From a virus: a stretch of DNA of 44,850 nt. The position numbers and the translations under genes were made by a program. Numbering within the stretch: the stretch's first letter is position 1; each line of letters begins with the position of its first letter. The stretch spans positions 1 to 44,850 of IMG/VR virus record IMGVR_UViG_3300036770_003390. The stretch is one strand, 5' to 3'. The notes below the pieces were generated by a model that made no database searches, was not told where the DNA came from, and was given only the letters and a program-made list of their open reading frames with translations. Shown here piece after piece: positions 3,748 through 25,255 of this stretch.

Positions 3748-3761
3748 AGGGGTGACAGTAT

Positions 3762-6700
3762 ATGGTTTTGGGCACCAAGGTAAACAGAACTGAAGAAGGT
3801 ATTACCTACTCCGGATTGTCGGAGGTAACTCTCTATTCTGGTTCTAAGACTGAAGAGGGTTATTCTTCTTTCTTAGATAAAGTGCATAACAAGAAAGACC
3901 GCTTAATCGGTTCGTACTATAGTATGTCGACGCAGAGTCGACGTCTTGAGGATAGACTTTACCGTAGATTAAACTCCTTGGCTGAAGACCCTTCTCCCGA
4001 AAATATAAAGAGCGGCAACTTTATGTCGGTTAGTTTGGGCGCTAATATAGAGGACTACGGCCTAAAAGGTAAACTCAACGTCTACTCGGATGTTACTCCC
4101 CTTAATGATAATTATGTCCCTACTGTTTTAGCGGCTGCAGGCGGTGCTGTAGTTGGGTATAACTTAGGTAAAAATAGAGTAGCTCGGGCAGCGGGTCTAC
4201 TAGCGGGAGCCGCTGCTGCCACTGCGGCGTCTTTAGCAATTATGGATACCCCTACTTTAGGTCGGATGCTTAGCGGTAGGATAACCGAACGGTCTAATAT
4301 AAGGGGTGTATACGCGGGAAAAACTTATGAGAGTAGAACTCAGGGTGACAATACTCACGGACACGCTAAAGCGGCGGCTACCTCTCGTTCTGATGAAGTC
4401 GCCTTAATATCCACTGCTAACTTAGGTGAAGCCCAGGAAACAAAAAGTAATACGACGAAACAGTTGAACTTCTCCGCTGTTATAGAAGATAATGCAGTCG
4501 TTAAGCAGATAAAGCAGGCTATACAGTATATAAACAAATCGGCTCAAGACCCTAAGGAGACTCCGCCGAATCTTCCTAATGTAATTATTGGCGGTAAAGG
4601 TGGAGAATCGCAGCAGAGACATAAAGAGCTAGTGCAGTCTGCCAAAGGTAACTTATATATGACTCTATTCGCGGCTACCGATAAAGAGTTATTTAAAGAG
4701 GTGGTTGCTAAGAGTAAAGACCCGGATATAAATAAGATAGTAATTGTGTCTAATAATCCAGCGGGGAAAACCGCCGCTACTAGTCCAGAGATACAATCGG
4801 ACTTACTAATGTCTTTGGTGAACTCAAGTCCGAAGATAGAAGTGAGGTTAACCGATGAGCAGGCTAACGTCATGCTTCACGCTAAATCTATATTTAGCGA
4901 TGTCTGGTCCTATATCACTTCCCACAACTTCAGTAAAAGTAGTAATAACTTTGTGACCGAGATTGGGGTGGTTATACGCGACCCTAATATCTCGAAAGCT
5001 GGTATTAAAGAAATTGAGAGGTGGCAAGCGCAAGGTATAACTAAGACCTTATTGCCTACGGATACTCCTGACCCTGATTTAAATACTAAGAATAAGGAAC
5101 TTAACGAGAGGAACTTCCCACTGTTCTCTGGGCGACAACTATCCTCAAAAACCACTGCGTATGATAGAGGACTGTTCTCCACATTATTTAGGCCTAAGTA
5201 TACCGATAAATCCGATATGGGGGACACAATATCAAGAGAGACCACCGGGACGATTTATCTTCCTACATCTATAGACGATAGGTTCTTCTCGATGTTTAAA
5301 GGAGAACGCCCCACTCCATACCAAGATTATATATATAGCCTTACCGGTAAAACTAAAGATGATGTCACTGAGCCTGGGGATAAATTCCGCTATGCCCTTT
5401 ATGCTTCTCTAGATAGACAACTTAGCCCGGGTACTCTACGAGGATGGGGCGCACTTATAAACGAGAAATTCCCCGAGGCTTACGAGAAAGACCGCGGCTT
5501 GGTGGGTACAGGTCTAACTCTCTTTGGGCGTACCTTAGATTATTTGACAGGGTATTACACGATGAAGCAGCTTTACGCTGCGGAAAAAGGTAAAGCTTTG
5601 GAGGACGACCCTCAAGGATTACATAAATCTCAATACGAGAGTAAAGAGAAGAGGGGATTCTTCGAGACTCTCATATCGTCCTCCTACTCTACGGCTAGTG
5701 CTACTACTAACGCCTTACTCTTCTACTTTGGATTTAGTCACTCTCTCTCAATCTTTAAAGCGGAGTTAGAGACTGCCGGTATGGAGAGAGTTATGTCCTC
5801 GTCCACTAACAAGGGTTTCTTTGGTTGGGCTAGAGCAAGACAACTCCCGATGCAACACCGCGATTTGTTCTACTCTCTTAATGCTGTTGCAGATAAATTT
5901 ACGGCCAAGGGTTTAATCGGGTCTAACGTAATTGACGCTATGCTCGAATACTCCATCCTCGGTAAGATGAATGATGCCGGGGCAGTTAAGGAGTTTATCG
6001 ATGCCTCGGATAATAAAACTGCGTTGCAGTTTGTAAAGAATTTAATGGAATCTGGAGACCCCGCCGATGAGGGTGTGGAGACTTTCCGGAGGGAAATAGA
6101 TCGTATAGGGAACTATGCCGTCAAGAAAGGAGAGTTAGATGTTGCGACGACGGAGATAGCAGAAGAAGTCCACCGCATTAAAAAACAGACCTTTGGGGTT
6201 ACTGACGGGGTTATGGACTTAGAGTCTGGTTTATATAGAGACCCCGCTCCGAATCAATACGGTTCTTTAAACGTAGTAAATAGACTACGTCTACTCGACG
6301 ACAGTAACTTTGAGAATGTTATTGAACCGATCTTACGGTCTATATCGATTGTAGGGGATGTAGAGACCCAACTTAGTTTTGAGAACTCTGTAAAAGGCCT
6401 CCGAGAAGTCTTGTCTCAACCTATATATATCAGGTATAAGTCGGAGACCTTCTCCTCTATTGAACCCATGAACTTCGGGAAACAACGTTTAGAGGATATC
6501 GCGCGGCACTTGGATGATATCTCGAGATATATCGCGTTCAATCCTATATATTATCTTCCGGGAGTAAGAAAAGCTAGAGGGATTACGGGAACGTGGACAC
6601 CGGACTTAGTGGAAGCGAATCAAGGTCCTCTACCCAATCAGGTACTCTCCTTAAAGGGGGCGTTGGGCCCGGGTTTCCAAGGACTAATCGAGTTATCGTC

Positions 6701-12700: not shown

Positions 12701-15700
12701 GGCTGGGCGCACATTTAAAGACTTAGCCCCGGAGCGTGTTCGTATTGGTAGAGCGTCCTCTCGTATGGCGTTGGGTGCGGGTACGGGTTTTCTGAAAGGG
12801 TATTTCTTAACAGGATTCTTATATAATTTCCTACATAAAGACGAAGACCAAACCACTGAAGAGTATAGAGACGAAAGAAGAAAGTGGCAGTTTATCGGTG
12901 GAGGAGCTTATGGAGCCACCGACGCTATACGGTATGGTTTTAAATTCTCCTTTAGGGGAATTGTACAAGACGCTCGGAATATCCTTAATCCGAATTATGT
13001 TCCGGTTCGGCAGAACAATATTATCTTCCGTGAAGTGGAAGACTTATTCGATCCTTTTGGACTCCGGACTGTGGGCTTACCAATACTGAAGGGTATTAGT
13101 AAAGGAATCGGCGGTCTTGTAAGTTCTCTTGCGAACTTTACATTTAGAAGAGGTTCTGCGCCTAATATTCCACCAACCTCCCCGACTACACCGTTACCCC
13201 CTCGGCCACAACAATCTCTATTCCATAAAATATGGGGAGGGGTACACGAATTCTTATTCGGGAGTCAACCTTTTAGGAATGGACTTACAACCTTCTTATC
13301 CGAGTCGCTACCAATGGCGGCTAAGAAAGCGTATGACAGTTCTGCTTTTAGACCTCTTAGGAGTTTAGGTAGAGGAACTATAAATGCATTGATGTCCACA
13401 GGGGTAGACACCGCTCTAATGTCTTTTTCTATGTGGAGACTTAATAGTCTGGGCGGCTATAGTGATATTCAAGAATATAGAGCCGCGAGTAGAGATGTAG
13501 CGGGCGCCGCTATAGGTGCATCTGTAAACCTAGGTAGTCTGATTCTCAGTGGAGTCACCCGAGGTAAGATAAACCTTAGTTGGGCTAAACAGATCTCCAC
13601 AACGATGATTCTCCAAAATAGTGTTGGGGAATTCGTAGGGAATTGGTTGGGGGATAGAATGTATTCCGAGCGGGGTACCCGACGTCGGTCTTTAATAGGT
13701 AAAACTATATCTGCTTTACCGGGTATAGGGGATATGCTGATGCCCCCCTCAGCCTATGCGGATGAAGGAACGGCGGATGAGTCCCAAGTTACAACTAGAG
13801 ACGTTGTGGAGTTTGGAGTCTTCGGGTTAGCTGTCGCGGGTATAGGTTACGGTGTAACTACCGGGGCGGTCTCTGGTTGGAGATATCTTAACGAAGTGAA
13901 TAAGACCAGAGACTTATTTATGCGGTCTCCTTTCTTAAAGGGAGATTCTTTAAGGTTTAGTCCGGCGTCGGCAAAAACATCAAGACTACCCAGGCTTTAC
14001 GCTTCAAGAGTTAGTCCCTCCCGTTTAAAAGGTACTCGGTACTCTTCTCTTTATAGAGGTGTAGCTAGCGCTGGAGACGATTTAGTCGAAGAGGGCGTAA
14101 AATCCTCGGTACGAAGTACTCAGGCGCGGGTGTATAGAGAAGCCGCGAGACTTACCGCAGAGAGAATGGCGCGCGGTGGGGGTAGACAAGCTTTTTCAAA
14201 GGCAGCACGGAATAGAATGTTCCAGAAGGAACTGTACCGAGCGGCGAGTAGGGAAGCTACTAAAGAAGTAGCGGGGCGTTCCTTAAGCGGACAGATATTC
14301 AGAATTGTAACGAGTAGAGCTTTTGACGCCGCGATTGCGGTTGTAGCCGCTCCATTTACTCTGCACAGTAATTCTCAAGCCGCGGAAAACCTTCGACATT
14401 ACAAAACCAGTCCCCGCCAAGAAATTGTAGACATCAACAAACGTAACGTCACGGGGATATTTACAGGGTTAAGTGTGGTACCCCGTATAGGTACCGCGCT
14501 AAACATAATTGGTTCCTTTGCGTCTGAAGTATCTGGTGGGTTTGGTCAAGGACAGAGATATTGGCAGCGATTACAGCGCGCTAATATCACTTCGCAGGCG
14601 GAGTACGTCAAATACGCTGACTCCGCTAGTAAAGGTGGTTTAACCGGTGCGCTTGTGGGCGCGGGTGTGGGGGCGGTCATTGGAGGATTACTTGGAGGAT
14701 TTCCGGGAGCGATAGTCGGCGGTATTATCGGCGGGTATATCGGTAACTATTTAGGTTCTGTTATCTCGCAGGAAGCTTACTTATTTAATAAAGAGAAGAA
14801 TCATGATGAGTTATACGCCACCATTGGGGGACACGCTCTTCTGGCGGGTGGACTTTACGGTGCGTATAAGTTAGGGCGGTCGCTCTGGAATAGGAAGTTA
14901 GAGAGAGACCTAAAGCAAACTCAGGAGAAAGCTAAGACAAATATTAAGGAAGAGATGGGCGCTACACCTCAATCTCCTGAAGAAACGAAGACCCCGGTTG
15001 AAACAGCGGAACCGGTAGAGCCAGCTAAACCTACACCTAAACCCACACCTAAACCACAACCCCCGGAGACTTCTGCAGAGAATACCCAAAAGTTAAACGA
15101 GGAAGCGGCGGAAGAACGAGTAGAAACCGCTAAAACGATTTTGGGGGAACCCCCTAAACCTACCCCTAAACCTACCCCTAAACCTACCCCTGCCCCTACT
15201 CCTAAACCTACTCCTAAACCTACTCCGAAGCCTACCCCTAAACCTCAGACTACGTCGTCTAAACCGTCATTTGCGCCGGCGGTATTACAATACCGTTCGG
15301 ACCAAATAGATAAGTATACAAGTGGGCAATATAGTTACGAGCAACTTACTCTTATAGAGCAAGACTTAACTTTAAGGTTGTCTAAAGACAAGAGGACGGG
15401 GCGAACTTTAAGCAAGAACGAGCGTTTAGGTATAGTAGCTGAACGCGCGGCGGTTATAGCGGCGAAGGAGCAGATTATTCCTCCAGAGCTAAAACAAATA
15501 GAAGATGAAGCTAAAGCTAAGAAGAGACAGCTTCAAAATGAGACGCAACAACAGAGAGAAGCCGTTGAAGCCGAAGCCGCTCGCAAACGAGCAGAATTAG
15601 AATCTAAACCTCCGACTCCTCTTACTCCTCCTACTCCTCCTACTCCTCCTACTCCGGCATTATCTGAAGAGGAGATGATTGAGGCGAAATATAGAGAGAA

Positions 15701-18700
15701 GCAGAAGAGTTCTCACGATAAATTTAAAGATCGGGAAGAGGAGATTGCGCGTAAGGAAGCGGAGCTTGCGGCAAAACATAAAGAACTTGAAGACTTACGC
15801 TCCGGTAAGTCCCCAACTCCGACTACACCGACAGCCGAGAGTCCCGGACCCGTATCTAAACCCACGGTGGAATCATCTAAACCAACACCTCCACCTCTAC
15901 CTCCAACTAAACCAACACCAACACCTCCGCCCTTACCCCCAACTAAACCAACGCCGCAATCTAAGCCGGATGCAGAGACTTCTAAACCTCCCTCTGAATC
16001 TTTACGCCCTATAGACCACAATTTAGTCTATGCGGGTAAAGCTGGGATGCTCCAAGACTTACGCGCGGGGGCTGATGCATCCCGCAGCGCCAGAATATTT
16101 ATTGAGTCTGTAGATGACGACCTTCTTTGGGAAGATGGTTTTGATTCTCTGAGAGAACGTGAGGCTAAATTAAGACAGAGCGCCAACGAGACCTTAAATA
16201 CAGATTTAGTGCCTAACACAGGAGAAGTTGAAGCTAAAGTTGCGAGAGAGTTAGCTCAAGCGGATTATATCAATGAGAGGCTAAACGCGTTACAAAAATC
16301 TAACGATATTCAAAACTTGAAAGGGGAGGCCGCCACTCAAAGAGTAGATTTAAGCAATGCCGGGGTTAGAAAACAAAAAGTTGGGTTGTGGGATAGGTTA
16401 TGGAATGGACCCTCGTTCTATTTTGAGGAAAGGCCAGATATGGTTTTCCGCGGAGATTCCTTTATGCAGGAGGAGGAGATAAGATTCGCAAACGAACAGA
16501 TTGAGCGGATGTTCCCCCATGAGAAGGCTCCAACTTTAGAGATTGTACGCGACCCTAAATCTACATATAAAGGGTACTATGACCCACGAAGACATGTAGT
16601 TAGTGTTAATCTCGCGCGTGGTGATACTTCGTTGGATATTCTAGACACGCTTGTGCATGAACAGGCTCACGCGTATAACACTAGGTATACCTCTAAAACA
16701 GATTTCTTTGATAGCGCTAAAGAGTATGTAAGTTTTCTAAAAGAGACGCTTCTTACAAATAAGTTGCGTAGTGATTTTATTGAAGTAAGTCTAGAGAGTA
16801 AACAGCGCCGGCAATACGTATATAGAGGCGCTCTATCTTCTTCCCACCACTATGCGGTTGGGGTTCTAGGCGTACAAACGGTAGAGGGAACTAATTACAC
16901 TAGACCTAATCAGGATGTAGTCTCCCAAATAAATAAATTAGCGGAGAGAGCCGAGACTGGGCAATTAAGTATTGAAGATGACCGGCTGTTCCGTAAACTT
17001 ACAGGCGGCTTTATAGATGAACTTAGCGCGTATAACGCGGCGGCTGAGGTTTATGAAGAGTTCCCTGTTAATAGTGTGGGTAAAGGACTTCATACACATG
17101 AAGCTCCGGATAAAGGTTTTGAAGCTGCATATAACCGCATGATGAAAGCCGCGGGCTTCGACGTACAAGTAGAAATGGGCTTTAAACCCCCACAAAGAAA
17201 GAAAGCTCCGGGGGGATTTGTACGGGTACAAAAACAATCTAAAGCAGCGGGGCGTAGAGAGCGGTGGAGTAACGTTCGTAGAGGTACCGCGCAGGGTATA
17301 GATATCCAGGGTCTTATCTTAGACACCATTATCGATAAGACTAAAGGCGCGGCGGATAAAGCTGTTAGTGGAGTAAAGACGGTTGCTAGTAATTTAGGGA
17401 GAGGAGTATGGGAAGGTAGCGGTAAGTTAGAGACTTGGGGTTCCAAGCTGGATACGCGGTTTGGGAATGTAGGTGTTGGAGGCCAAGCTGGATTCTTCGG
17501 ACGATTTGGGCAAGGACTACGCGCTGAGTTTAGTATGCGCGGTATTGTCGAAGGGACGTTTGGAGTAGGTAAGACTGACACCGGGAAGTTTGGCCTTAAA
17601 GGTAAAGGCGGCGCTATGGCTCTTCTCGGTACCGGTTTACAGTTAGCGGACGATATATTAAGTGGGAAGTCCGCAGGAGAAACAGCGACGAACTTTGGTA
17701 TGAGTATTCTCGGAGGCTTAGCCTTTGGGGCTGCCATGGCGGGGTTAGGCGCTATGGCCGCTTCAAGCGCCGCGGCTATAGCTACCTTAGGGACTTTAGG
17801 TAGTGTGGCTTTGATGGCTTATGGAATCTATAGTCTTACTAATCAAGCCTTGGATGTTGGGGGTAAGGCGTATGAGAAGTGGTGGTTAAAGAGGAAACGG
17901 ACGGCGGAGGAACAGAAAGACTGGGAAGAGCAGAAGCAAATGCTCTCGATGGGTTTCGGTGTGGGCACCGCGATGTATGTAGGTTCTCTGGCTGTCCTTC
18001 GTAGTACTGAAGCTGAAAAGAGAAACTCGTTTACTTCTCGTAAGGTTGTAGAACAGTCTGGACTACGGGTACAGACCCAACGCGGTAGAACTCTTAGTTC
18101 GGTGGGTGGAGGAGTTAGTGGAGTAGGAAGCGGAGTTACTTCTGGTGCGCTGGGGGATAAGACTATTTATACTCCGGCGAACGACCCCGCGCTGCAATTA
18201 TTATCTGGGGTGTTGTCTAAAGAGACCTCATTACAGAAAGAGACTAAGGTAAAACTTCCTAGTAAGGTCAACAAGTTGGAGAAGGAGGAGAAGAGTAGTA
18301 AGGATAAAGAGAAGGTAAATAAAGCGGCTCAAGACGCGAAGAAGCAGAAGTCTACATTTGCGGAGGAGTATAAGTTATATGAGGACAAACTGAAAGGAGA
18401 GAAAGGGCCGTGGCGGAGTATTCTCGACTTCTTCGGATTAGCGTGGAAAGCGGTAACAGGAGCAAGTAGATTTATTTACGAAGCGAAGACCAAACTCTTT
18501 AAGGGGGTAGCGGATCGGATTGCGGGCGGAATGCAAGCGGCTTTCCGAGCAGGTAATGACTTCATGGGTCTTATCCAAGGGGATGTCCGGGGTACGTTTG
18601 CAGACATCTTGAATATGATTTCGGCGGGAGAGGGAGACTGGGGTTCCTTTAACCGAGGCAAAGCCGGAGACTCTATGAATAGTAGTTGGGAGTCTGTCTT

Positions 18701-21700
18701 CGGTAAGAGGGTACAAGAGACCACTTTAGCGGAGATAATGGAGGCGCAGAGTAAAGGAAAAGTATTCGCGGTAGGGCGGTATCAATTTATTCCGTCTACT
18801 TTAGCCGGGGCGGTTAAGAATACGGGTATAGACCCGAATACTCCGTTTAATGAAGACACTCAAATGCGGTTGGCGGTATCTTTACTCCAATGGAAACGCC
18901 CCGCTATCTGGAAGTATATAACGGGACAGAGTGATGATATCGTTGCGGCACAGAAAGCTTTAGCTTTAGAGTGGGCCTCGATTGAATACGGTAAATCCGG
19001 ACGGGGCGCTTACGACAGTGTTGGAGGAAATAGACATAGTACCTCCTATGAGAAGTCTATCGAGGCTTTAATCGCGACTCGACAGCGGTATGCCGAGAGT
19101 GGCGGGAATTTTGTGTTTGATAAAGGGGGTATGTGGAGTGAAGCTTCTCCCGACGGAGTACAAGTAAAAGGAGCTACCCAGGTTAAAGCTTCAGATATTA
19201 ATTCGGGGTATGGGATGCGGGTTCATCCTATATCCGGTAAGCGGAAGATGCACCGCGGGGTAGATGTTGCTTCAGTTGGCGGGAAAGGCGTCGATGGGAT
19301 GTTTATCTCCTTCACGAAAGATACGGTTGTCACTAAAGTAGGGTATCAAGAGGGCGGCGCTGGGTATTGGGCTGAATTAGATGCGGGTAATGGCATGAAG
19401 TTTAGAGTCATGCATATGCGAGGCCAAGCTTTCTTAAAAGTAGGGTCTACCTTGAAGGCAGGCTCTGCTATAGGTCAAGTTGGATCTACGGGTGGTTCTA
19501 CCGGACCGCACCTTCACTTCGAGACTATTATTAATGGTGCTCACACCGACTCTAGACCTTACGTGGGTTTTGTTCTTCTAGGAGGTAAGCCCAACGTAGA
19601 GGTTAAACAACCTCAAACTCCGCCCCCTGCTCCTAAGAACACTGCTAAAGGTGGTTCTCAATCTCAGCGTATGGCGGAACAGACTTCGGTCAGTACTTCT
19701 AGAGGAGCAGTTGGTGGTTTAGTAAGTAATGGCTCCGCGTATAAAACTCCAATGAAGACTATACACGGGGGCGGAGGTGACCCTTATCATATTGACTTTA
19801 AGATTTATGGTGGGGTGTCTGATGAACAGAGAGTCGCGTTAATGGACGCGGTTGCCCGAGGTTATGAAGCGGAAGGGAGAAGAATAGAATTTTCTAATAG
19901 GGCTGTAGGAGGTGTGGTCTACCGCTCTACCGATAGTTTTAAAGAGAAATTAAGGAAAATACGCGCGGCGCAGGTTGCACATAGGGGACATAGTTCTCGT
20001 TTTGCGATGGACTTTTATGTCCCTATTAAAGGTAAAGCTAGGTATACCGGTAAGGCTAAAACATCCAGTACAGATGGGGGTGCCAACGTTAACTACATTA
20101 TTCCGGTTATTCCCGGAGGATATTTCACTGTAGGTAAACAAGGTCGTTCGGGACAACAAATTATTGGATATAACGCAAAAGGGGAAGCGGTATACGAATT
20201 TTTCCATGGTGCTGGTATGCAACCTGGAACCTATAGATTCCAAGATGCCGCTCCAGCGTCTCAACAGAGTAGACCTAAAGAAGCTTTTGCTCCTAACATT
20301 CCAGTAACCCCAATTCCTTCACCCCCGGGTAAGAGTACACCGCCTCAAAGTCAACCTAAACAGCAGAAGTCTTCCGGCCCTGCTTGGATAAAGACTGATA
20401 AGAGAGCAAGCTACTACGGTAGAGGAGACGGCTTCGCTGGTAAAGGCACAGCCACAGGTGAGAAGATGGATCCCACCGCTATGACTGTTGCGGCTAAATT
20501 GGTAAACGGTCGTCCGATGTTCCCCTACGGAACGATGATAGAAATCCGTAATGACGATAACGGAAAGAGTGTTGTCGTACGGGTTAACGATAACGGTCCG
20601 CTTACTCCGCGTAGAATGTTTGACTTATCTGCAGGGGCTTTTGAGAAGATAGCTCCTATCGAACAGGGTGAGATAAGAAATATGTCTTACCGCGTTTTAA
20701 GTACCCCTCAATCTAAGAAACAGAAGCAACAACGATCTAAACCTCAACAACCTAAGCAGCAGCAGAGAACAAATTCACGACAGACATCTCAAACGCAGAC
20801 AAGACGATACGACCAGAGGTTGGACTTAGACACGAAGTTGTTCCCAAGTTTGGTGACTTTAGTACCCACCAATAGAAAGACGCAACATGGGTCTCCTATT
20901 TACTCTCTTCAGATGTGGAAGAATGGTAAGTTGGTAGGTGCTGTAGACGCAGTTAGTGGGCGTCCAGAGCATCAGAGAGGAAATCGTGATGTCGCTGGGA
21001 GTCATCGTCCTCTTCCCGATGGCTCCTACACCCTAGCTAGAACTCCTTTCCGTAGTAATGAAAAGGATGTAGGTGGATTATTTTTACCGATCACTCCTAA
21101 TTTCCCTACTAGTAGAAGTGCGTTGGGTATTCATTGGGATGACGGTAAACCTGGCACCGAAGGTTGTATTGGCATTGTGGAGAGAGCCAATCGGGATAAG
21201 GTCTACAAATTTATAAAGGATAATAAGGTTCCTGTTATTATTGTAGACCTAGAGAAAAATACCTCTTCAAAACAGTCTACACTTCCAGAAGAAAAAAGAG
21301 ATAACAAGTACGTTAATGCGCCCAGTCCTGAACCGAAAGCGTTAGCCCGCGCTCAAACTGATGGAGGAGTACTCGTAGCGTCTGCCGGTGTATCCGATAT
21401 GGGGATGCCGATTCTTATAGCGGATGCTAGAACCCCTAAAACGAAAAAACAAAAACAGGTTCCTATTCCCTTCTTACGACAGGTGACGGGGGCTGCTTTA
21501 GAAGAGCTTGTATTCTCTCGAGAGGGTGTAAGCAGTAAGTCTTTGGACAAGTTGGAGAAGAGACTTAACAAACTTTATAACACTCCGGGTCTAGAGCTTA
21601 AATATGAGCTAATTAATAGTGCAGGGACTTACAGTTCTTACTACAACGAAATTGTTATCAATCCGAGAGTGAACCATACTGCTGACATCCCGGAGACCAT

Positions 21701-24700
21701 CAATACGGTGGTGCATGAGTATACACACGCCCAGAACTACCAACGTAGTAAGAAACTCACTAAAATCCAAGACCCTCGTAAATACGCTGAAGCAGTAGCA
21801 AAAGAATATAACGTCAAGACTTTGATGGATGTTCTCACTGATCCAGAGAGACAGAACGCGGTGAGTAGTGCTATCTTGTCCACGCTTAGTTCTGTTCAAG
21901 GTATGTACGGTAAGGAGAGTATACCGGAAGCCACTAAATTTATAGAGATGTTGGCGGACATCCGCGTTAAGGATCACCTTAAGACTAAAGCATTGATGGA
22001 CTTCTCGGCGGAATCGAGTCGGTATGTGTTTGAACGTTTCTTAGACGAAGTGTCCGCTTCCGCTATGGGTACTCATGCGTCTAAGACAGTTGGGGGTAAG
22101 CCCGAGAATTATGGTTTAACTGAGGATGAGCGTAAATTTACATTCGCGGTATTTAGATTGTTCCGGGAGTACGACTACGACGTTGTTCATAAACTCTTTA
22201 AAGGTCAAGAACCTCGAGTACGAGAGTCTTCCGACCGCGGCGTCTTAAGACGGATTGCGGAAAATATTCCTGGGTTAGATATATTCTTTCCTCCACCTGC
22301 TTTAGGTGCTGAATTTTCGCCTCAAGAAGTTGAGAGAGAATTGGGTAAAGCTAAACGAACTTTTGACCGAAATAAATCTAGGAAAGACAATGTCGTACGT
22401 AAGGTCACTTCGACTACTGAAATTCCTGAAGCGGTCTACAACGGCGAAACTCTCCTCGCCTCCAATAAACTTGAGAATCTTATCTATACACAGGGCAGAG
22501 ATGCTTATGCACGCGATAGACAACAAAAAAGACAAAGAGATGAGAGTACGAAGAGGAAGCACCGTCGGGTTAGTCCTGTAGACTTCGATGCACTTTTAAA
22601 CCGGAGTAGTTATGAAAATCTCTTAATGCAGGGCGAGATACTGTTCCGAGAGATAGGGGAAGGTTTAGTCAGACCTAAAGCTTTTCAGAATAAAGTACCT
22701 CCTAAAAACCAAACGGGCTTCCTACGATTAGTGCGTACTGGGGACCAAATTCGTGAAGGTAAATACGCGGGTTTTTATCCTTTAGCCTTGGAGATGTGGG
22801 AAGGAGATAAACTCGTGGGATCTGTACCGGCAGTTAGTGGAGTGGTAGGTACTCAAACAGATACCACAAAGCAACGTCATGTCGCCGGTAAACTTGCTCC
22901 TTTACCCGACGGTAATTATATTGTTGGGCAATCCTTTATGTCCACTGACCCCGTTGTGATGGGTATATTTATCCCTATCCTCTTTAAAGGTAATACTCAA
23001 CGGTCTGCTTTAGGTATACATACTGATGAAGGTAGAGGTGCCGGTACCGCTGGTTGTATAGGTGTTATAGAGAAAGCTCATACTAAACTTGTAGATGAGT
23101 TCATTAAGAAGAATAAGATTACTAAACTTGAAGTACAGATCTTACAAGAGAAACCTAAACGTAATCAAAAGAGTAAATTAAAAGCCGAAGAGAGGGGTGA
23201 ATATCTTATGGCCTCTGCAGGGGTATCGGATATGCCGGTACAAATGGTGCCTAACTCTCAAGAGTTGTCTGCGGTCATGTCCACCCCTAAACCTCGTATC
23301 GTAGCGCAGTGGGATCCTCAAGATATCTATACAGACTCTACCGCTATACCTGATCCTAACTCTGTATACAACACTAAACTACCGGTACAACTAGACCCTA
23401 GATACAAAATTAAGACACCGGTATGGGGTCAACCTGGACATAGACCTGAAATAGGAAGTGGTCCACCTCAAGGACCCGTATGGGGACAAGCAGGTAGTCG
23501 TCCCGAACAGAAGAGTGGACCCGTATGGGGACAAGCAGGGAGTAGACCTCCCAATAAAGAGGGTGGATGGACAGGTAAACCCCCCGCGGATTGGAAATCG
23601 CCTGGGGGGTACACAGGTAAACCCCCCGCGGATTGGAAATCCCCCGGAGGATATACAGGTAAGCCTCCTGCAGATTGGAAATCCCCCGGAGGATATACAG
23701 GTAAACCTCCTGAGGGGTGGAAGTCCCCTGGGGGGTATACCGGTAAAGCTCCTGCAGATTGGAAGTCCCCAGGGGGGTACACGGGTCAAACTCCTGATGG
23801 TTGGATTCATACAGGGCCGGATGATCCAGTTAGGGGTGTACCTAATGCTATTGAGCCTTCTGATGGACCTAAACCCCGCGTTGAAGATTTCTCTATTCTC
23901 GAAACGGATAGAGATAATCCTTCAACGACTCAATGGGGTATTCATACGCCTGGCTCCTCCTCTAAGGAGAAACCTAATAATGTCAATAAACCTGTTGAGC
24001 CTTTATGGAGGGACCGGGATACCAATACCCCGCGTAACGTTAATAACCGCACTCCTCTATGGGGAGAAGGTAACCCCGTAAAAGAACGGAAGGAAAAATC
24101 TCCTACATATACTAAACCTCCTTTATGGCAGAGCGGTACTACTTCTCGTTCTAGATCTCCTATTGTTAATGAACTAGTAGGTGTATTAACTGATGTTTTA
24201 TGGGGTAGTAAGGAGAAGAGTGGGTATGAAGTCAAGCCTAAGGACTATGAGGGTATAGATATACAGAGAGAGGCTGAGAAGGTCAAAACTGAGATTGAGA
24301 GACGTATCCGTATTATTGTGACGGAGGCGAAGTTACCCGCGGAGTATGTAAAGGTTATTCTAAACGCGCAACAGTTTGTGGATAAGGTTAAGAAGAATAT
24401 CCAAAAGCGGGTGGAGGAGTCTAAAGGACCTAAGGGTAAATTAACGGTGCCGCCGCCGTCTGATGCGGGTAATGCTTCTAACTATCCTTCGGCTGACCCG
24501 AACAATATTCCTTATGTCCAAACCGAGTATAAGAGAACCGCGGATGTTATTACAGATAAGGATGAGAGCGGAGTTGAACAGACGAGTATTCGTATAAATA
24601 GAGTGGATGATGAAGCGGCGGCGCTTTACCAAAAGGCTCAGGGAGGTTTTGCTCCTATTATGTGGGAGATGGGAGTTATGGAAACCTCGATGTCTTCTGC

Positions 24701-24761
24701 GGATGCTTCAACTTCCCACAATAAAGACCAATGGGGTCGTTTCCAACCCCAAGAGTTCTAA
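3762..24761 (+). CDS. Giant 6,999-aa multi-domain virion protein (tape-measure or ejection protein)
   Basis: One continuous frame of 7,000 codons, preceded by a GAGGGGTGA ribosome-binding-like site nine or so bases before ATG. Domains in order: a Gly/Ala-rich hydrophobic segment (about residues 124-162); a phospholipase-D-like domain with two HxK motifs (H201, H373); about 3,200 residues with many hydrophobic segments and charged linkers; a glycine zipper (about 3625-3668); Pro-rich linkers and coiled coils (about 3750-4070); metallopeptidase 1 (H4299/H4303); a second Gly/Ala hydrophobic segment (about 4645-4695); lysozyme-like (E4957); M23 peptidase (H5164, H5250/H5252); an unassigned His/Asp-rich module; an RlpA-like barrel; L,D-transpeptidase-like 1 (H5791, C5802); metallopeptidase 2 (H5985/H5989); L,D-transpeptidase-like 2 (H6420, C6432); and C-terminal repeats. 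Siphophage tape measures often carry lysozyme and M23 domains plus membrane segments, and podophage ejection proteins do likewise. I infer a role in crossing the cell envelope. No frameshift or RNA polymerase motif was seen. Confidence 0.9.
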   Translation: MVLGTKVNRTEEGITYSGLSEVTLYSGSKTEEGYSSFLDKVHNKKDRLIGSYYSMSTQSRRLEDRLYRRLNSLAEDPSPENIKSGNFMSVSLGANIEDYGLKGKLNVYSDVTPLNDNYVPTVLAAAGGAVVGYNLGKNRVARAAGLLAGAAAATAASLAIMDTPTLGRMLSGRITERSNIRGVYAGKTYESRTQGDNTHGHAKAAATSRSDEVALISTANLGEAQETKSNTTKQLNFSAVIEDNAVVKQIKQAIQYINKSAQDPKETPPNLPNVIIGGKGGESQQRHKELVQSAKGNLYMTLFAATDKELFKEVVAKSKDPDINKIVIVSNNPAGKTAATSPEIQSDLLMSLVNSSPKIEVRLTDEQANVMLHAKSIFSDVWSYITSHNFSKSSNNFVTEIGVVIRDPNISKAGIKEIERWQAQGITKTLLPTDTPDPDLNTKNKELNERNFPLFSGRQLSSKTTAYDRGLFSTLFRPKYTDKSDMGDTISRETTGTIYLPTSIDDRFFSMFKGERPTPYQDYIYSLTGKTKDDVTEPGDKFRYALYASLDRQLSPGTLRGWGALINEKFPEAYEKDRGLVGTGLTLFGRTLDYLTGYYTMKQLYAAEKGKALEDDPQGLHKSQYESKEKRGFFETLISSSYSTASATTNALLFYFGFSHSLSIFKAELETAGMERVMSSSTNKGFFGWARARQLPMQHRDLFYSLNAVADKFTAKGLIGSNVIDAMLEYSILGKMNDAGAVKEFIDASDNKTALQFVKNLMESGDPADEGVETFRREIDRIGNYAVKKGELDVATTEIAEEVHRIKKQTFGVTDGVMDLESGLYRDPAPNQYGSLNVVNRLRLLDDSNFENVIEPILRSISIVGDVETQLSFENSVKGLREVLSQPIYIRYKSETFSSIEPMNFGKQRLEDIARHLDDISRYIAFNPIYYLPGVRKARGITGTWTPDLVEANQGPLPNQVLSLKGALGPGFQGLIELSSNITLTARRMYEHGLVKTLKESGEILHLGKQLRHQEPAIAAIMSNSDLLSQLADDTASSPALNRIQQVLTEYDDLFSRHQQLSAYRHKGLSNTIKSVHAAAIGRKALASVGAVLAVDRVLDKYLMQNRGQDLISQMLYGINAKDTVKDGSADFSQVQYTGVVPDWLKVPTVLGAGVASGKMFYSLRIDDRLSTFARSDAEFKKLFNDESNKAVVQQLESINTRFTKGRNVTRFSFGMATVGAIASLFVLQGGFNTAAALANVFKKDYGDDGGLKTDEDIVFSTTMSSSIRRTVDKYKKLAKERTGEDVEDQDILNTRYIPKSGLANIALLGLLADRALQADKGKERVGYTWAHQQPNPIFQITLVSKTDPQGNKYAFSAGFQFLPILGMGSIPSYPLSLRINSVTTRAEQVAEKRYQRLYPGGIEDTRDTKELARESRESYLQGNLFDSFTPVFDKDSYFTRSLVFVGAAGVAGNIWQGVQQSGAWAHLSSIPSVKKELEGARSALGYLQLGVEQYEKLARWSQVPQTVMPNLLMRSIGTSTRFYDVKDARFLGPSFRKMTPLLLAAAIGFGAVGKGSEYSSLGSYYEAAGLSNVGSTANPYEALRQANEYRIGAAVGLTTVISTALYSGRVFDSAKSFVDTPPSYGISPFSLRGTQRQMYATYQDEALNLLAKAAHGDSVLRDLDAEKWPELVNRYARGTFNEVEAGKILPGKGKELFQQVDDVLRYAEPKLVRSNAIRMRLAGMSIVRAGALVGLAGLVYNTMFSDSRAEGEGNRFVRGFFEGPLKVFSGTESSSDFKRMSAARRALGYSSPFAPANKENFIPNLLNLFTLGLFGDIRKMTGMYKDNPNPFANIFGAWGMSEGTETWRAYLQAQSPGADISQSKVYMNMESISADDAKVLSAILSTKGEYSDKAVAKIRGATPKKTPSRLYGKTTASEVQALGGSSRELAMAAEVREFYAQHAARQRGSELFIDYFLEMARSGRIENLKVGDVLVEGLKSVDWTKYDLDGIFQYVPGAESQQPGVLDLFLNTFNVGGRFLTTGSFEKPTMDFAGLMESRKQAQRGNIFSYFIEPLKMAYFPKLREYSSTNSKGEVEQKTVPFVGSTVIMTLTTALTFTAVTAATTFSLMTTVSAFAAFGEGGTIRGMEEKVAERIASIQNSNFTIVSSGDNFQVQGRQRQTKGARRLRLGSETLTVSTQNARKIQDQFVDLNSRLSSYVEDLPDRESEFVKQIDTLVESKKKPGVDIGKEVEDLTGRIKRELRDILLDASIDVNDGSTKRLLEFFIDSSSATGIDAAVDDLIEDKFGKLSSLITDEINSTHVTPQNKYNIIQNIAERILDIQDAILNSAIQDEGASHVPQRLPRKKISPREQREIARRLLNNRNASLFSMSTTDRVARVGYLGSLREAATGAFGLLGKAMEVATFYPVYSMVTQAASEKSPMERMRASEAAANMIIETGIGMTLLSFAAKSMFTPAGWVATGAILGGYFLDQKFNEGRITDSITKGVRHLDRHIFKPLANRVLAPIINTLVGVPVLNETLQVLGLPARALDPTITSLYRKFEGTPLAYITNAVLPETSEAWWNRDTKYSKGLITFQGPVPWETNERDISDYIAEKNRERYARAASTQAGLDDELVNPFLQGRINGFGEYTTYQRYFDTKGYAFRVLAPFGPKPYMSQLLTLAALRRNQLGDMLHGRPYRQRINETPFGSIGTAVVGSYVTNKIPQESVGSTSYTLAKVADNTAYAIRETPNVLRDTASTIYGNITAPFKGASIDTSGIMRMGGAIVSTGERIGDAFKGVLSGIGNNRVSRGALTGLITYGVLTAIFSNSLSDRERRKYRQIDPFIWGMSGAASFANSFMGPLTRQIKSGLDVVDTYFANQNIKKFEELSGLTAEELVNINNAQLNDMLKYKGIGRSALPFVFEYLGKGALVGGATFGLMQYGRSLVTSATGMSDEDYTKLSLGVSGATSVTYMGIKGGIRRGYERRMMNYAREAAKAREAGRTFKDLAPERVRIGRASSRMALGAGTGFLKGYFLTGFLYNFLHKDEDQTTEEYRDERRKWQFIGGGAYGATDAIRYGFKFSFRGIVQDARNILNPNYVPVRQNNIIFREVEDLFDPFGLRTVGLPILKGISKGIGGLVSSLANFTFRRGSAPNIPPTSPTTPLPPRPQQSLFHKIWGGVHEFLFGSQPFRNGLTTFLSESLPMAAKKAYDSSAFRPLRSLGRGTINALMSTGVDTALMSFSMWRLNSLGGYSDIQEYRAASRDVAGAAIGASVNLGSLILSGVTRGKINLSWAKQISTTMILQNSVGEFVGNWLGDRMYSERGTRRRSLIGKTISALPGIGDMLMPPSAYADEGTADESQVTTRDVVEFGVFGLAVAGIGYGVTTGAVSGWRYLNEVNKTRDLFMRSPFLKGDSLRFSPASAKTSRLPRLYASRVSPSRLKGTRYSSLYRGVASAGDDLVEEGVKSSVRSTQARVYREAARLTAERMARGGGRQAFSKAARNRMFQKELYRAASREATKEVAGRSLSGQIFRIVTSRAFDAAIAVVAAPFTLHSNSQAAENLRHYKTSPRQEIVDINKRNVTGIFTGLSVVPRIGTALNIIGSFASEVSGGFGQGQRYWQRLQRANITSQAEYVKYADSASKGGLTGALVGAGVGAVIGGLLGGFPGAIVGGIIGGYIGNYLGSVISQEAYLFNKEKNHDELYATIGGHALLAGGLYGAYKLGRSLWNRKLERDLKQTQEKAKTNIKEEMGATPQSPEETKTPVETAEPVEPAKPTPKPTPKPQPPETSAENTQKLNEEAAEERVETAKTILGEPPKPTPKPTPKPTPAPTPKPTPKPTPKPTPKPQTTSSKPSFAPAVLQYRSDQIDKYTSGQYSYEQLTLIEQDLTLRLSKDKRTGRTLSKNERLGIVAERAAVIAAKEQIIPPELKQIEDEAKAKKRQLQNETQQQREAVEAEAARKRAELESKPPTPLTPPTPPTPPTPALSEEEMIEAKYREKQKSSHDKFKDREEEIARKEAELAAKHKELEDLRSGKSPTPTTPTAESPGPVSKPTVESSKPTPPPLPPTKPTPTPPPLPPTKPTPQSKPDAETSKPPSESLRPIDHNLVYAGKAGMLQDLRAGADASRSARIFIESVDDDLLWEDGFDSLREREAKLRQSANETLNTDLVPNTGEVEAKVARELAQADYINERLNALQKSNDIQNLKGEAATQRVDLSNAGVRKQKVGLWDRLWNGPSFYFEERPDMVFRGDSFMQEEEIRFANEQIERMFPHEKAPTLEIVRDPKSTYKGYYDPRRHVVSVNLARGDTSLDILDTLVHEQAHAYNTRYTSKTDFFDSAKEYVSFLKETLLTNKLRSDFIEVSLESKQRRQYVYRGALSSSHHYAVGVLGVQTVEGTNYTRPNQDVVSQINKLAERAETGQLSIEDDRLFRKLTGGFIDELSAYNAAAEVYEEFPVNSVGKGLHTHEAPDKGFEAAYNRMMKAAGFDVQVEMGFKPPQRKKAPGGFVRVQKQSKAAGRRERWSNVRRGTAQGIDIQGLILDTIIDKTKGAADKAVSGVKTVASNLGRGVWEGSGKLETWGSKLDTRFGNVGVGGQAGFFGRFGQGLRAEFSMRGIVEGTFGVGKTDTGKFGLKGKGGAMALLGTGLQLADDILSGKSAGETATNFGMSILGGLAFGAAMAGLGAMAASSAAAIATLGTLGSVALMAYGIYSLTNQALDVGGKAYEKWWLKRKRTAEEQKDWEEQKQMLSMGFGVGTAMYVGSLAVLRSTEAEKRNSFTSRKVVEQSGLRVQTQRGRTLSSVGGGVSGVGSGVTSGALGDKTIYTPANDPALQLLSGVLSKETSLQKETKVKLPSKVNKLEKEEKSSKDKEKVNKAAQDAKKQKSTFAEEYKLYEDKLKGEKGPWRSILDFFGLAWKAVTGASRFIYEAKTKLFKGVADRIAGGMQAAFRAGNDFMGLIQGDVRGTFADILNMISAGEGDWGSFNRGKAGDSMNSSWESVFGKRVQETTLAEIMEAQSKGKVFAVGRYQFIPSTLAGAVKNTGIDPNTPFNEDTQMRLAVSLLQWKRPAIWKYITGQSDDIVAAQKALALEWASIEYGKSGRGAYDSVGGNRHSTSYEKSIEALIATRQRYAESGGNFVFDKGGMWSEASPDGVQVKGATQVKASDINSGYGMRVHPISGKRKMHRGVDVASVGGKGVDGMFISFTKDTVVTKVGYQEGGAGYWAELDAGNGMKFRVMHMRGQAFLKVGSTLKAGSAIGQVGSTGGSTGPHLHFETIINGAHTDSRPYVGFVLLGGKPNVEVKQPQTPPPAPKNTAKGGSQSQRMAEQTSVSTSRGAVGGLVSNGSAYKTPMKTIHGGGGDPYHIDFKIYGGVSDEQRVALMDAVARGYEAEGRRIEFSNRAVGGVVYRSTDSFKEKLRKIRAAQVAHRGHSSRFAMDFYVPIKGKARYTGKAKTSSTDGGANVNYIIPVIPGGYFTVGKQGRSGQQIIGYNAKGEAVYEFFHGAGMQPGTYRFQDAAPASQQSRPKEAFAPNIPVTPIPSPPGKSTPPQSQPKQQKSSGPAWIKTDKRASYYGRGDGFAGKGTATGEKMDPTAMTVAAKLVNGRPMFPYGTMIEIRNDDNGKSVVVRVNDNGPLTPRRMFDLSAGAFEKIAPIEQGEIRNMSYRVLSTPQSKKQKQQRSKPQQPKQQQRTNSRQTSQTQTRRYDQRLDLDTKLFPSLVTLVPTNRKTQHGSPIYSLQMWKNGKLVGAVDAVSGRPEHQRGNRDVAGSHRPLPDGSYTLARTPFRSNEKDVGGLFLPITPNFPTSRSALGIHWDDGKPGTEGCIGIVERANRDKVYKFIKDNKVPVIIVDLEKNTSSKQSTLPEEKRDNKYVNAPSPEPKALARAQTDGGVLVASAGVSDMGMPILIADARTPKTKKQKQVPIPFLRQVTGAALEELVFSREGVSSKSLDKLEKRLNKLYNTPGLELKYELINSAGTYSSYYNEIVINPRVNHTADIPETINTVVHEYTHAQNYQRSKKLTKIQDPRKYAEAVAKEYNVKTLMDVLTDPERQNAVSSAILSTLSSVQGMYGKESIPEATKFIEMLADIRVKDHLKTKALMDFSAESSRYVFERFLDEVSASAMGTHASKTVGGKPENYGLTEDERKFTFAVFRLFREYDYDVVHKLFKGQEPRVRESSDRGVLRRIAENIPGLDIFFPPPALGAEFSPQEVERELGKAKRTFDRNKSRKDNVVRKVTSTTEIPEAVYNGETLLASNKLENLIYTQGRDAYARDRQQKRQRDESTKRKHRRVSPVDFDALLNRSSYENLLMQGEILFREIGEGLVRPKAFQNKVPPKNQTGFLRLVRTGDQIREGKYAGFYPLALEMWEGDKLVGSVPAVSGVVGTQTDTTKQRHVAGKLAPLPDGNYIVGQSFMSTDPVVMGIFIPILFKGNTQRSALGIHTDEGRGAGTAGCIGVIEKAHTKLVDEFIKKNKITKLEVQILQEKPKRNQKSKLKAEERGEYLMASAGVSDMPVQMVPNSQELSAVMSTPKPRIVAQWDPQDIYTDSTAIPDPNSVYNTKLPVQLDPRYKIKTPVWGQPGHRPEIGSGPPQGPVWGQAGSRPEQKSGPVWGQAGSRPPNKEGGWTGKPPADWKSPGGYTGKPPADWKSPGGYTGKPPADWKSPGGYTGKPPEGWKSPGGYTGKAPADWKSPGGYTGQTPDGWIHTGPDDPVRGVPNAIEPSDGPKPRVEDFSILETDRDNPSTTQWGIHTPGSSSKEKPNNVNKPVEPLWRDRDTNTPRNVNNRTPLWGEGNPVKERKEKSPTYTKPPLWQSGTTSRSRSPIVNELVGVLTDVLWGSKEKSGYEVKPKDYEGIDIQREAEKVKTEIERRIRIIVTEAKLPAEYVKVILNAQQFVDKVKKNIQKRVEESKGPKGKLTVPPPSDAGNASNYPSADPNNIPYVQTEYKRTADVITDKDESGVEQTSIRINRVDDEAAALYQKAQGGFAPIMWEMGVMETSMSSADASTSHNKDQWGRFQPQEF
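4340..5020 (+). other. Domain: phospholipase D-like (two HKD-type motifs) in giant protein
   Basis: Residues about 193-420 of the giant protein. The first motif is HAKAAATSRSDEVALISTANLG with H201 and K203; the second is LHAKSIFSD followed by YITSHNFS, with H373, K375 and D380. Each histidine motif is followed by the I-S/T-x-N-hydrophobic segment typical of PLD folds, and by a strand with Glu or Val-Ile-Glu (FSAVIED, VTEIGVVI). The family includes phospholipases and nucleases of the Nuc type. Which substrate applies here is unknown; membrane lipid or host DNA are both possible. Confidence 0.65.
14634..14763 (+). other. Domain: glycine-zipper hydrophobic segment in giant protein
   Basis: Residues about 3625-3668 show GxxxG-type spacing over a long hydrophobic stretch (GALVGAGVGAVIGGLLGG and GAIVGGIIGGYIG). 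Such segments form membrane helical hairpins and are common in phage tape-measure and ejection proteins and in other membrane-inserting proteins. A second Gly/Ala-rich hydrophobic segment lies at about 17694-17845. These are candidates for the parts that enter the host membrane. Confidence 0.7.
15018..15970 (+). repeat. Low-complexity Thr-Pro-Lys-Pro linkers in giant protein
   Basis: Four proline-rich tracts at about 15018-15070, 15155-15247, 15608-15660 and 15879-15968 encode repeats of KPTP and PPTP, separated by a charged Glu/Lys/Arg/Ala-rich predicted coiled coil (about 15480-15605 and 15660-15800). At the DNA level these are imperfect CCTAAACCTACC-type repeats. They look like flexible or extended spacers separating the hydrophobic middle of the protein from the enzymatic C-terminal third. 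Confidence 0.8.
16415..17160 (+). other. Domain: zinc metallopeptidase 1 (HExxH) in giant protein
   Basis: Residues about 4219-4467. The motif TLVHEQAHAYN gives zinc ligands H4299 and H4303 with catalytic E4300. A later DELSAYNAA segment (E4420) matches the DExSA segment of metallopeptidase 2 and is the likely third ligand. The upstream strand region (YYDPRRHVVSVN) also corresponds to the second copy, so the two are probably paralogous. The substrate could be virion proteins, host envelope proteins or peptidoglycan cross-links; this is not determinable here. Confidence 0.7.
18588..19020 (+). other. Domain: lysozyme-like glycosidase in giant protein
   Basis: Residues about 4943-5087. The segment MISAGEGDWGSFNRG, with Glu4957 in the catalytic position, followed by FAVGRYQFIPSTL (from about residue 5002), is the signature layout of phage lysozymes and lytic transglycosylases related to GH104/SLT enzymes. 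The domain would cut the glycan strands of peptidoglycan. It sits directly before the M23 endopeptidase, a pairing frequent in tape-measure proteins. Confidence 0.8.
19190..19600 (+). other. Domain: M23 (LytM-like) endopeptidase in giant protein
   Basis: Residues about 5144-5280. The zinc-binding motifs are clear: HRGVD (H5164, D5168) and GPHLHFE (H5250, H5252), with the usual YGMRVHPISGK lead-in. M23 enzymes cut peptide cross-bridges in peptidoglycan. All expected ligands are present, so activity is likely. Confidence 0.92.
19740..20235 (+). other. Domain: unassigned His/Asp-rich module between M23 and RlpA in giant protein
   Basis: Residues about 5327-5490. The module contains DPYHIDFKIYGG (H5343), a helical GRRIEFSNRAVGG region, AHRGHSSRFAMDFYVP (H5407, D5417) and EFFHG. 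The spacing of His, Asp and His is reminiscent of M15-type D,D-/L,D-carboxypeptidases but does not match their standard motif, so no function is assigned. Its position among four other peptidoglycan-active modules suggests a similar target. Confidence 0.45.
20385..20703 (+). other. Domain: RlpA-like double-psi beta barrel in giant protein
   Basis: Residues about 5542-5648. The family features are all visible: RASYYGRG, GTATGEKMDP, FPYGTMIEIRN, GKSVVVRVNDNGP and FDLSAGAFEKI. Bacterial RlpA binds and, in some species, cleaves peptidoglycan denuded of stem peptides. The acidic pair is kept (E5567, D5570), but the conserved His of active RlpA (in a TAAH context) is replaced, with AAK at this place, so the barrel may bind rather than cut. 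Confidence 0.85.
20835..21255 (+). other. Domain: L,D-transpeptidase-like 1 in giant protein
   Basis: Residues about 5692-5832. The motif SALGIHWDDGKPGTEGCIGI, with H5791 and C5802, follows an LPDGSYTL strand. This is the His...Gly-Cys layout of YkuD-fold L,D-transpeptidases and related phage/toxin domains (for example DUF2778-like); the usual Ser/Thr-x-Gly-Cys-Arg is varied. It could modify or cleave peptidoglycan peptides. A close second copy lies 629 residues downstream, and both are followed by a short ASAGVSDM tag. Confidence 0.7.
21570..22105 (+). other. Domain: zinc metallopeptidase 2 (HExxH) in giant protein
   Basis: Residues about 5937-6115. TVVHEYTHAQNY supplies H5985, E5986 and H5989; RFLDEVSASAMG supplies E6096 as probable third ligand. 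The preceding TYSSYYNEIVINPR resembles the same position in metallopeptidase 1, and the distance from motif to third ligand is similar (about 107 versus 117 residues). It lies between the two L,D-transpeptidase-like copies. Confidence 0.7.
22710..23145 (+). other. Domain: L,D-transpeptidase-like 2 in giant protein
   Basis: Residues about 6317-6462. SALGIHTDEGRGAGTAGCIGV, with H6420 and C6432, after LPDGNYIVG. It has the same order of elements as copy 1, including a MWEGDKLVG strand matching MWKNGKLVG and the downstream ASAGVSDM tag, so a duplicated module is likely. Catalytic residues are conserved in both copies. Confidence 0.7.
23418..23813 (+). repeat. In-frame tandem repeats near the C terminus of the giant protein
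   Basis: Two repeat families follow each other. First come three copies of PVWGQ(A/P)G(S/H)RP (23418-23561). Then come six 42-bp units (23562-23813) encoding GGYTGKPPADWKSP, the first with Trp for Tyr and the last diverged to GGYTGQTPDGWIHT. Unit length is exactly 14 codons, so expansion or contraction would keep the frame. The Gly/Trp/Pro-rich composition suggests an extended or carbohydrate-contacting segment; no function is proven. Confidence 0.95.
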
Positions 24762-25255
24762 TGCTTCCGTCGCCATATCCACGGTGCTATAGCTTTTCTA
24801 GCACTCCATATCCCTAACTTTTTCTTTTGTGCATCCGCCTGCCCTTTTCTTAACGCTTCCTTCTCCTTTTTGCAGGGTTCTAGATACGACTCGTATACCC
24901 AGGCGTATCCTGCCTGTACTAAGTCTAGGTTAACTAACTTTCCACCTATATAGACTTTTGCGATGGCTCTGCCGTATATATCTGAGTCGTAAATATGTAA
25001 TTTTATTTTCTTTTTCAATACTCTTTGTTCTAAATATTTTTTGGCCTCTAGCCCTTTCGGTTGTTTTATTTCCGCCGCGTCTATGCAGGCTAACCTAACC
25101 TTTAACTCATTCGTTTTTTTGTTTTGTTTTTCGTAGTTAACCACTATGGTGTCTCCATCTATTACCCTCGTCACTAACGCTTCTGTTTTTATCGGCATGG
25201 CGACTCCTAAAGTAAGAGATATTGTACTTAACAGAACTAGTGCATTTACTGACAT
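24758..25255 (-). CDS. Secreted staphylococcal-nuclease-like thermonuclease
   Basis: A calcium-dependent nuclease homologue of 165 residues. The hydrophobic N terminus (about residues 4-20) is a likely signal peptide or anchor, although it lacks the usual basic start. Catalytic residues are visible: R54 and E62 in VRLACIDAAE (normally IDAPE), D34 in VIDGDT and R96 in DIYGRA; the C-terminal LVQAGYAWVY motif is also typical. The start at 25255 is forced by an in-frame stop five codons upstream. The stop codon overlaps the stop of the giant gene on the other strand. A role in degrading host or competitor DNA outside the cytoplasm, or in nucleotide scavenging, is inference. Confidence 0.9.
   Translation of the reverse strand: MSVNALVLLSTISLTLGVAMPIKTEALVTRVIDGDTIVVNYEKQNKKTNELKVRLACIDAAEIKQPKGLEAKKYLEQRVLKKKIKLHIYDSDIYGRAIAKVYIGGKLVNLDLVQAGYAWVYESYLEPCKKEKEALRKGQADAQKKKLGIWSARKAIAPWIWRRKH

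Follow-up and report, generated by a model that had tools for sequence, protein, structure and literature searches.

T7 gp15/gp16 and N4 vRNAP are virion proteins that are ejected through the tail, and both phages are short-tailed. Ejection of the N4 vRNAP through the tail is described in the available part of PMC12633501, and the cysteine-free vRNAP of N4-like phages has been tied to passage through the tail or the periplasm (excerpts of PMC3915230 and PMC3715699). The closest described counterparts of the protein reported here are two very long proteins of the cyanophages Ma-LMM01 (MAP_120) and My-WqHQDG (WOL31340, from a Microcoleus phage). No function is assigned in PHROGs to phrog_29513, and all ten phage records that match the Ma-LMM01 member are labelled ‘hypothetical protein’. 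In the literature we recognised nothing as a description of this family: no gp120 or ORF120 was found in the accessible part of PMC5780444. Seven cloned Ma-LMM01 proteins are described in the accessible part of PMC3426561.

We analyzed a stretch of 44,850 bases that forms an IMG/VR record of its own (the window). Its DNA is also contained in a 97,570-bp IMG/VR contig (G001), with one mismatch (at 28234) over window positions 1-33261 and 100% identity over 38000-44850. The original prediction of one unbroken 6,999-residue frame holds: 3762..24761 (+) is a single uninterrupted frame of 6,999 codons, from the ATG at 3762 to a stop that ends at 24761, and the same DNA is present in the second contig. 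A G-rich, Shine-Dalgarno-like stretch lies ~10 bases 5' of the ATG. The 6,999-aa product is referred to as the giant, and its features are as follows, together with the two genes that precede it.

120..3068, +: TerL with an apparent intein carrying an HNH endonuclease (31% identity to Ma-LMM01 TerL; HNH families)
3121..3747, +: 208-aa protein between TerL and the giant (position of Ma-LMM01 MAP_119)
4344..5051, +: PLD-like domain, aa ~195-430, HxK motifs H201/K203 and H373/K375 (Pfam PLDc_2)
5526..8105, +: conserved family core, aa 589-1448 (profile match at aa 589-930; blastp)
14637..14732, +: glycine-zipper-like hydrophobic segment, aa 3626-3657 (Pfam glycine zippers, sub-threshold)
15009..16001, +: Pro/Thr/Lys-rich low-complexity region, aa ~3750-4080 (tandem repeats at 15025-15952; linker runs at aa 3753-3836)
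16479..17051, +: putative HExxH domain 1, HEQAH at aa 4299 and DELSA at aa 4419 (motif; similarity to the G011 giant)
17661..18137, +: hydrophobic region, aa 4634-4792 (family profile positions 2435-2577 of 2899, E 9e-4, weak)
18594..19091, +: lambda-type lysozyme-like domain, aa ~4945-5110 (S-CRES3 match; phrog_37890)
19248..19550, +: Peptidase_M23 domain, aa 5163-5263 (Pfam E 3e-15, over cut-off)
20403..20678, +: RlpA-like double-psi beta-barrel, aa 5548-5639 (DPBB_1 E 1e-15, over cut-off)
20910..21242, +: YkuD-like domain 1, aa 5717-5827, His5791 and Cys5802 (23.2 bits, cut-off 23.4)
21165..21167, +: Cys5802, in YkuD copy 1
21459..22151, +: putative HExxH domain 2, SprT-like, HEYTH at aa 5985 and DEVSA at aa 6095 (sub-threshold Pfam)
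22692..23150, +: YkuD-like domain 2, aa 6311-6463, with Cys6432 (model; 46% identity to copy 1)
23055..23057, +: Cys6432, in YkuD copy 2
23571..23796, +: tandem repeat with a unit of 42 bases, or 14 residues (repeat search)

Upstream of the giant, contig G001 encodes a structural module (portal, capsid, sheath, tube, baseplate J and TerL) that matches genes of Ma-LMM01 and/or My-WqHQDG gene by gene, with the order kept. The giant gene forms the end of this module, 3' of TerL and ~18 kb from the tube gene. The intervening 208-aa protein is weakly similar to its 253-aa neighbour in My-WqHQDG (E 2e-4 in a three-protein comparison). Judging from these relatives, the host is probably a cyanobacterium; a scan of bacterial genomes with the TerL alignment gave no relative. 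Elsewhere in the window, 28267-31113 encodes the large subunit of a ribonucleotide reductase, apparently interrupted by an intein that includes an endonuclease-like segment, and 41865-43343 a large serine recombinase-like ORF, its translation read by eye. Next to the portal region, upstream of the window, the opposite strand encodes a second giant ORF of 3,747 aa without cysteine (L012:396-11639 = G001:C1:85395-96638). It occupies the position of Ma-LMM01 MAP_080 (3,562 aa, 1 Cys), with weak local similarity (E 2e-6).

The giant belongs to a family encoded downstream of TerL in Ma-LMM01-like cyanophages. Ten complete relatives have giants of 2,796-5,484 aa: Ma-LMM01 2,898; My-WqHQDG 4,151; G002 4,365; G003 2,961; G004 3,209; G005 2,796; G006 4,390; G010 3,564; G011 5,484 and G012 2,918. 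The G007 giant is partial. Among the 12 giants compared here, that of the window is the longest; homologues over 5,000 residues had been proposed as a check, and G011 is one at 5,484 aa. In the G011 giant (L055:506-16960), which has no cysteine, a PLD-like domain occurs together with a GDSL lipase domain.

A scan with the TerL alignment returned 32 loci, one of which is the window virus; near-identical LMM01-type contigs among them were excluded from the family counts. A giant, or an open-ended ORF of >1,850 aa, follows TerL in 22 of the 24 loci with >7 kb of sequence there. The 2,918-aa giant of L044 (G012) lies farther downstream, behind ORFs of 511 and 683 aa, and L045, one of the weakest TerL matches, lacks a giant within 10 kb of TerL. 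Eight loci have less sequence: in four a large ORF is cut off by the end of the record, two end almost at TerL, and L038 and L040 have no giant in the 2.5-3.2 kb after TerL. L040 (G009), with the TerL closest to that of the window phage (41%), carries an opposite-strand 412-aa ORF and no giant in its 3.2 kb.

A profile of nine relatives, built with the window protein excluded, matches the giant with E 9e-21, against 0.11 at best for reversed sequences. The matches fall at aa 187-417 (E 6e-15) and 589-930 (E 5e-10), with weak in-order matches at aa 1827-1862 and 4634-4792 (E about 1e-3) and one out of order at aa 3629-3666 (E 0.05). By blastp, aa 838-1448 of the core match G002 (E 1.5e-10 in a very small comparison set). 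Clear homology to the family is thus confined to aa ~187-1448. A PHROG scan of the giant did not list phrog_29513 among its matches, aa 2001-4333 had no phage match, and scans of viral contigs with three slices of the giant returned only the window virus itself.

The front of the chain varies within the family. PLDc_2 matches the window giant at aa 289-420 (E 6.5e-11, 42.6 bits, cut-off 27); the second motif reads HxKx4D and the first is not canonical. Regions homologous to this domain are present in the G006 and My-WqHQDG giants. PLDc_2 is over cut-off in six of the 12 giants (window, My-WqHQDG, G002, G006, G011 and G012), the G002 domain having been missed by the whole-protein Pfam scan and found over cut-off in a six-frame search and in an N-terminal slice. 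SNase is over cut-off in four others (G003, G004, G005 and G010), near the N-terminus and upstream of the core. By Pfam, the Ma-LMM01 and partial G007 giants have neither domain and none of the 12 has both. PLD and SNase folds both cleave phosphodiesters. Because SNase takes the place of the PLD-like domain in relatives and the two folds share this chemistry, the PLD-like domain is likelier to be a nuclease than a lipase. Its best NCBIfam match, far under cut-off, is DISARM DrmC, and the lipid-directed activity originally inferred is doubtful. The SNase domain sits inside the giant in four relatives, whereas in the window a thermonuclease-like gene adjoins it (24758-25255, other strand, 4-base overlap with the giant's end). 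Additional ORFs in G003 and G011, 3,722 and 4,839 aa long, match PLD below the cut-off.

Toward the C-terminus, wall-type domains accumulate. The lysozyme-like domain shares 47.5% identity with a protein of Synechococcus phage S-CRES3 (E 7e-28) and matches phrog_37890 (E 2e-28). M23 peptidases bind zinc through HxxxD and HxH motifs, and both are present, as HRGVD (H5164..D5168) and GPHLHF (H5250/H5252). The RlpA-like domain matches TIGR00413 rlpA with E 8e-18 (65.1 bits, under the cut-off of 82.15); the catalytic His of RlpA-type domains was not seen in it by eye.

Homologues of YkuD copy 1 occur in lysozyme/endolysin genes of Nodularia phages (E 2e-11). The fold was supported for copy 2 by its model, with mixed pLDDT over the domain (Z 11.0 to Bd1075, 10.5 to Pgp2, and 9.7 and 9.5 to B. 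subtilis YkuD, 4a1i and 1y7m), and for copy 1 only through homology to copy 2. Foldseek gave no match at E ≤ 0.001 for the copy 2 model, the best being an L,D-transpeptidase at 4.4e-3, and the copy 1 model, for which homologues were aligned on copy 1, matched only unrelated chains (Z ~5). His and Cys are invariant in five sequences. In place of the Arg that typically comes after the catalytic Cys of YkuD L,D-transpeptidases, both copies have Gly behind the Cys motif, so the type of activity is uncertain.

The HExxH pair may represent two zincin metallopeptidases, a plausible assignment from motifs and distant similarity. Domain 1 matched no curated family in Pfam or NCBIfam; in very small comparison sets it shows similarity to HExxH domain 2 (E 0.03) and to part of the G011 giant (E 2e-4). 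Domain 2 matches SprT-like at E 1.2e-4 (22.4 bits, under the cut-off of 25.6). Two HExxH motifs exceed chance (~0.05 expected; two reached in 3/2000 shuffles), and in both copies DE[LV]SA follows 110-120 residues beyond HExxH; the models of both are poor. Searches of phage proteins with the HExxH slices stayed at chance level: the best E-values were 0.04, to a tape measure of a Streptomyces phage, and 0.3.

Six domains are therefore supported by family, homology or model (PLD-like, lysozyme-like, M23, RlpA-like and two YkuD-like), their activities being predicted. Of the eight originally listed, the two HExxH domains remain sub-threshold and plausible only, and eight active enzymes would be an overstatement, given also the Gly for Arg in YkuD and the RlpA His not seen. 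The uncommon concentration of cell-wall-directed domains within a single very long chain, encoded in a phage structural region, is borne out by Pfam, homology and gene order. Hydrophobic segments are enriched as well (7 vs 2.85 in shuffles), while the glycine-zipper segments noted earlier match Pfam only under cut-off. Structure prediction, suggested as a check, gave poor models (mean pLDDT 48.5 and 40.1), with the YkuD fold recovered for copy 2. The model of aa 4151-5290 (mean pLDDT 40) was set aside: fold comparison gave mostly helical chance matches, so nothing was concluded from it on HExxH domain 1, the lysozyme-like domain or M23. PDB sequence searches with the PLD, lysozyme-like, both YkuD and HExxH 2 regions and two profiles yielded nothing useful (1t70, E 0.19, is chance).

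In relatives these hydrolases are organized differently. M23 was sought in records G001-G012, many of which are fragments. A separate M23 frame of 221-1145 aa occurs in eight of the 11 relatives (G002, G003, G005-G009 and G011), and M23 was not found in G004, G010 and G012; in G001 the sole M23 match lies inside the giant, the only such case found here. Among the same 12 records, a lysozyme-like domain was detected in the G001 giant and, weakly, in a 379-aa frame of G003 that resembles its M23 frame. In the G002 giant a YkuD-like domain is present, and DPBB matches under cut-off. Separate hydrolase genes are annotated in Ma-LMM01 (MAP_095) and My-WqHQDG (several of WOL31302-31307). In G001, a Pfam scan of 10 of the 12 ORFs between tube and TerL showed no hydrolase. 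The window giant is thus the only member examined with both M23 and a lysozyme-like domain inside.

The giant contains two cysteines in 6,999 aa, Cys5802 and Cys6432, both predicted YkuD nucleophiles. Across the 12 giants (one partial; 45,772 residues) there are four, of which three are predicted YkuD nucleophiles; the third is that of G002, and the fourth cysteine lies in G010. In the window phage, cysteine occurs at 18.9 per 1000 residues in 23 non-structural ORFs and at 5.4 in 24 upstream structural-region ORFs, sets drawn partly from a mechanical ORF picker, and at 5.4 per 1000 the chance of ≤ 2 in the giant is 2e-14. Ejected reference proteins behave alike: T7 gp15+gp16 have 0/2,065, lambda gpH 0/853 and N4 vRNAP (gp50) 0/3,500, with one cysteine in T7 gp14, against 6.0-11.8 per 1000 in the other listed T7, lambda and N4 proteins. 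These references are a hand-picked set and not a sample, and the inclusion of N4 gp51/gp52 among the ejected proteins is doubtful. Length does not account for the trait by itself, as My-WqHQDG WOL31316 has 50 cysteines in 1,309 residues. Scarcity of cysteine is also not specific to ejection, because several structural proteins of ordinary length lack it (lambda V; T7 gp9; N4 gp56 and gp57; Ma-LMM01 MAP_087, MAP_105 and MAP_112). Family-wide avoidance is accordingly suggestive, the best evidence for ejection though a shared trait and no proof. The original prediction missed this avoidance, the family downstream of TerL and the separate M23 genes of relatives.

Taken together, the place of the gene, the hydrophobic segments, the avoidance of cysteine and the wall-directed domains argue for an ejected virion protein, and we consider the giant probably a tail-ejected protein of an Ma-LMM01-like, contractile-tailed cyanophage. 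Counting against this are the distance of the gene from the tube gene, behind TerL, and the lack of a giant in the 3.2 kb that follow the closest TerL, that of G009. The chassis common to relatives would consist of the PLD-like domain (probably a nuclease) and the conserved core with hydrophobic segments. The window giant appears to extend ~2,200 residues past the part matching the family's near-C-terminal region, and this extension would carry the lysozyme-like, M23, RlpA-like, two YkuD-like and one HExxH domain, the other HExxH lying just upstream. During infection the chain may exit via the tail and then refold in the periplasm, its domains cleaving or binding glycan and peptide in the vicinity and its hydrophobic segments aiding DNA passage across the inner membrane; it may also serve partly as a tape measure. 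We infer this order of action, like the enzyme activities, and the terms ‘virion protein’ and ‘complete envelope-crossing machine’ used originally are inferences of the same kind.

That the giant is a tape measure proper, a tail-length ruler with added hydrolases that is later ejected like lambda gpH, is a possibility we regard as doubtful. The longest cysteine-free protein among 21 of the Ma-LMM01 structural region has 652 aa, against giants with 0/2,898 (MAP_120) and 1/3,562 (MAP_080), which would suit such a role, as would the matches of the giant to tape-measure PHROGs (weak for the glycine-zipper region; 23188 and 10030 for the M23 region). Lytic transglycosylases are found in tape measures, according to the available part of a survey (PMC10194240). 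Against a ruler stand the position of the gene 3' of TerL, far from the tube gene, and family lengths that range over 2,796-6,999 aa. Tape measures usually span ~0.15 nm per residue, about twice the figure for a relative. That figure comes from MaMV-DH01, which has a tail given as 230 or 260 nm in the accessible part of PMC9927357 and a giant with 98.7% identity to the Ma-LMM01 one: 2,898 aa on such a tail make ~0.08-0.09 nm per residue.

An ejected cargo aimed mainly at nucleic acid by a PLD nuclease, with accessory wall domains, seems unlikely to us. The replacement of the PLD-like domain by SNase in G003, G004, G005 and G010 and the faint DrmC match speak for this reading, but it sits poorly with five cell-wall-type domains in one chain and with the GDSL lipase domain of G011. 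A lysis polyprotein, with enzymes acting from within late in infection, perhaps after proteolytic release, is improbable: the domains could serve lysis, because no other M23 or lysozyme-like match was found on the 97.6-kb contig, and YkuD-like homologues occur in stand-alone lysozyme-domain phage proteins of 408 and 431 aa (L059, L060) and in the Nodularia ‘lysozyme/endolysin’ genes, but the contig is incomplete, so that an endolysin may lie outside it, the search covered only these two types, cysteine is nearly absent family-wide, and the reading is made less likely by relatives that share the core and N-terminal domain in giants showing no M23.

Returning to the tail-ejected protein, we tentatively extend it to the family, at somewhat less than even confidence: LMM01-like giants may be tail-threaded proteins, nearly free of cysteine except at catalytic sites, built on a modular chassis with an exchangeable front nuclease (PLD/SNase) and swappable envelope enzymes, and in the window phage a single-chain envelope-digesting machine may have replaced separate tail hydrolases. 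This would give the giants of freshwater cyanophages, including those on bloom-forming Microcystis, a testable role as ejected proteins with a front nuclease. Cysteine nearly confined to catalytic sites could flag ejected proteins in other phages, and separate tail hydrolases versus a single fused chain offer a natural comparison.

Among known systems, N4 vRNAP and T7 gp15/gp16 resemble the giant in being long and cysteine-free; no sequence relation to them was seen, and N4 gp50 is a polymerase, unlike the giant. Tape measures with M23 or lysozyme domains, such as PHROG 23188 (5,002 positions), likewise combine a long chain with an M23-like stretch, but differ in gene position, number of enzyme domains and length. 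The same YkuD-like domain occurs in L059 and in Nodularia phage vB_NspS-kac65v151, and L059 also has the same lysozyme-like domain, yet L059 and L060 are free-standing proteins of 408 and 431 aa. Closest are Ma-LMM01 MAP_120 (BAF36211, PHROG 29513) and My-WqHQDG WOL31340, which like the window giant lie after TerL, are giant and match the family profile, with no cysteine in either and, in WOL31340, PLD homology in addition. At 2,898 and 4,151 aa, neither has a cell-wall hydrolase by Pfam, unlike the window giant, whose parts are of known kinds and which alone among the giants examined combines M23 with the lysozyme-like domain.
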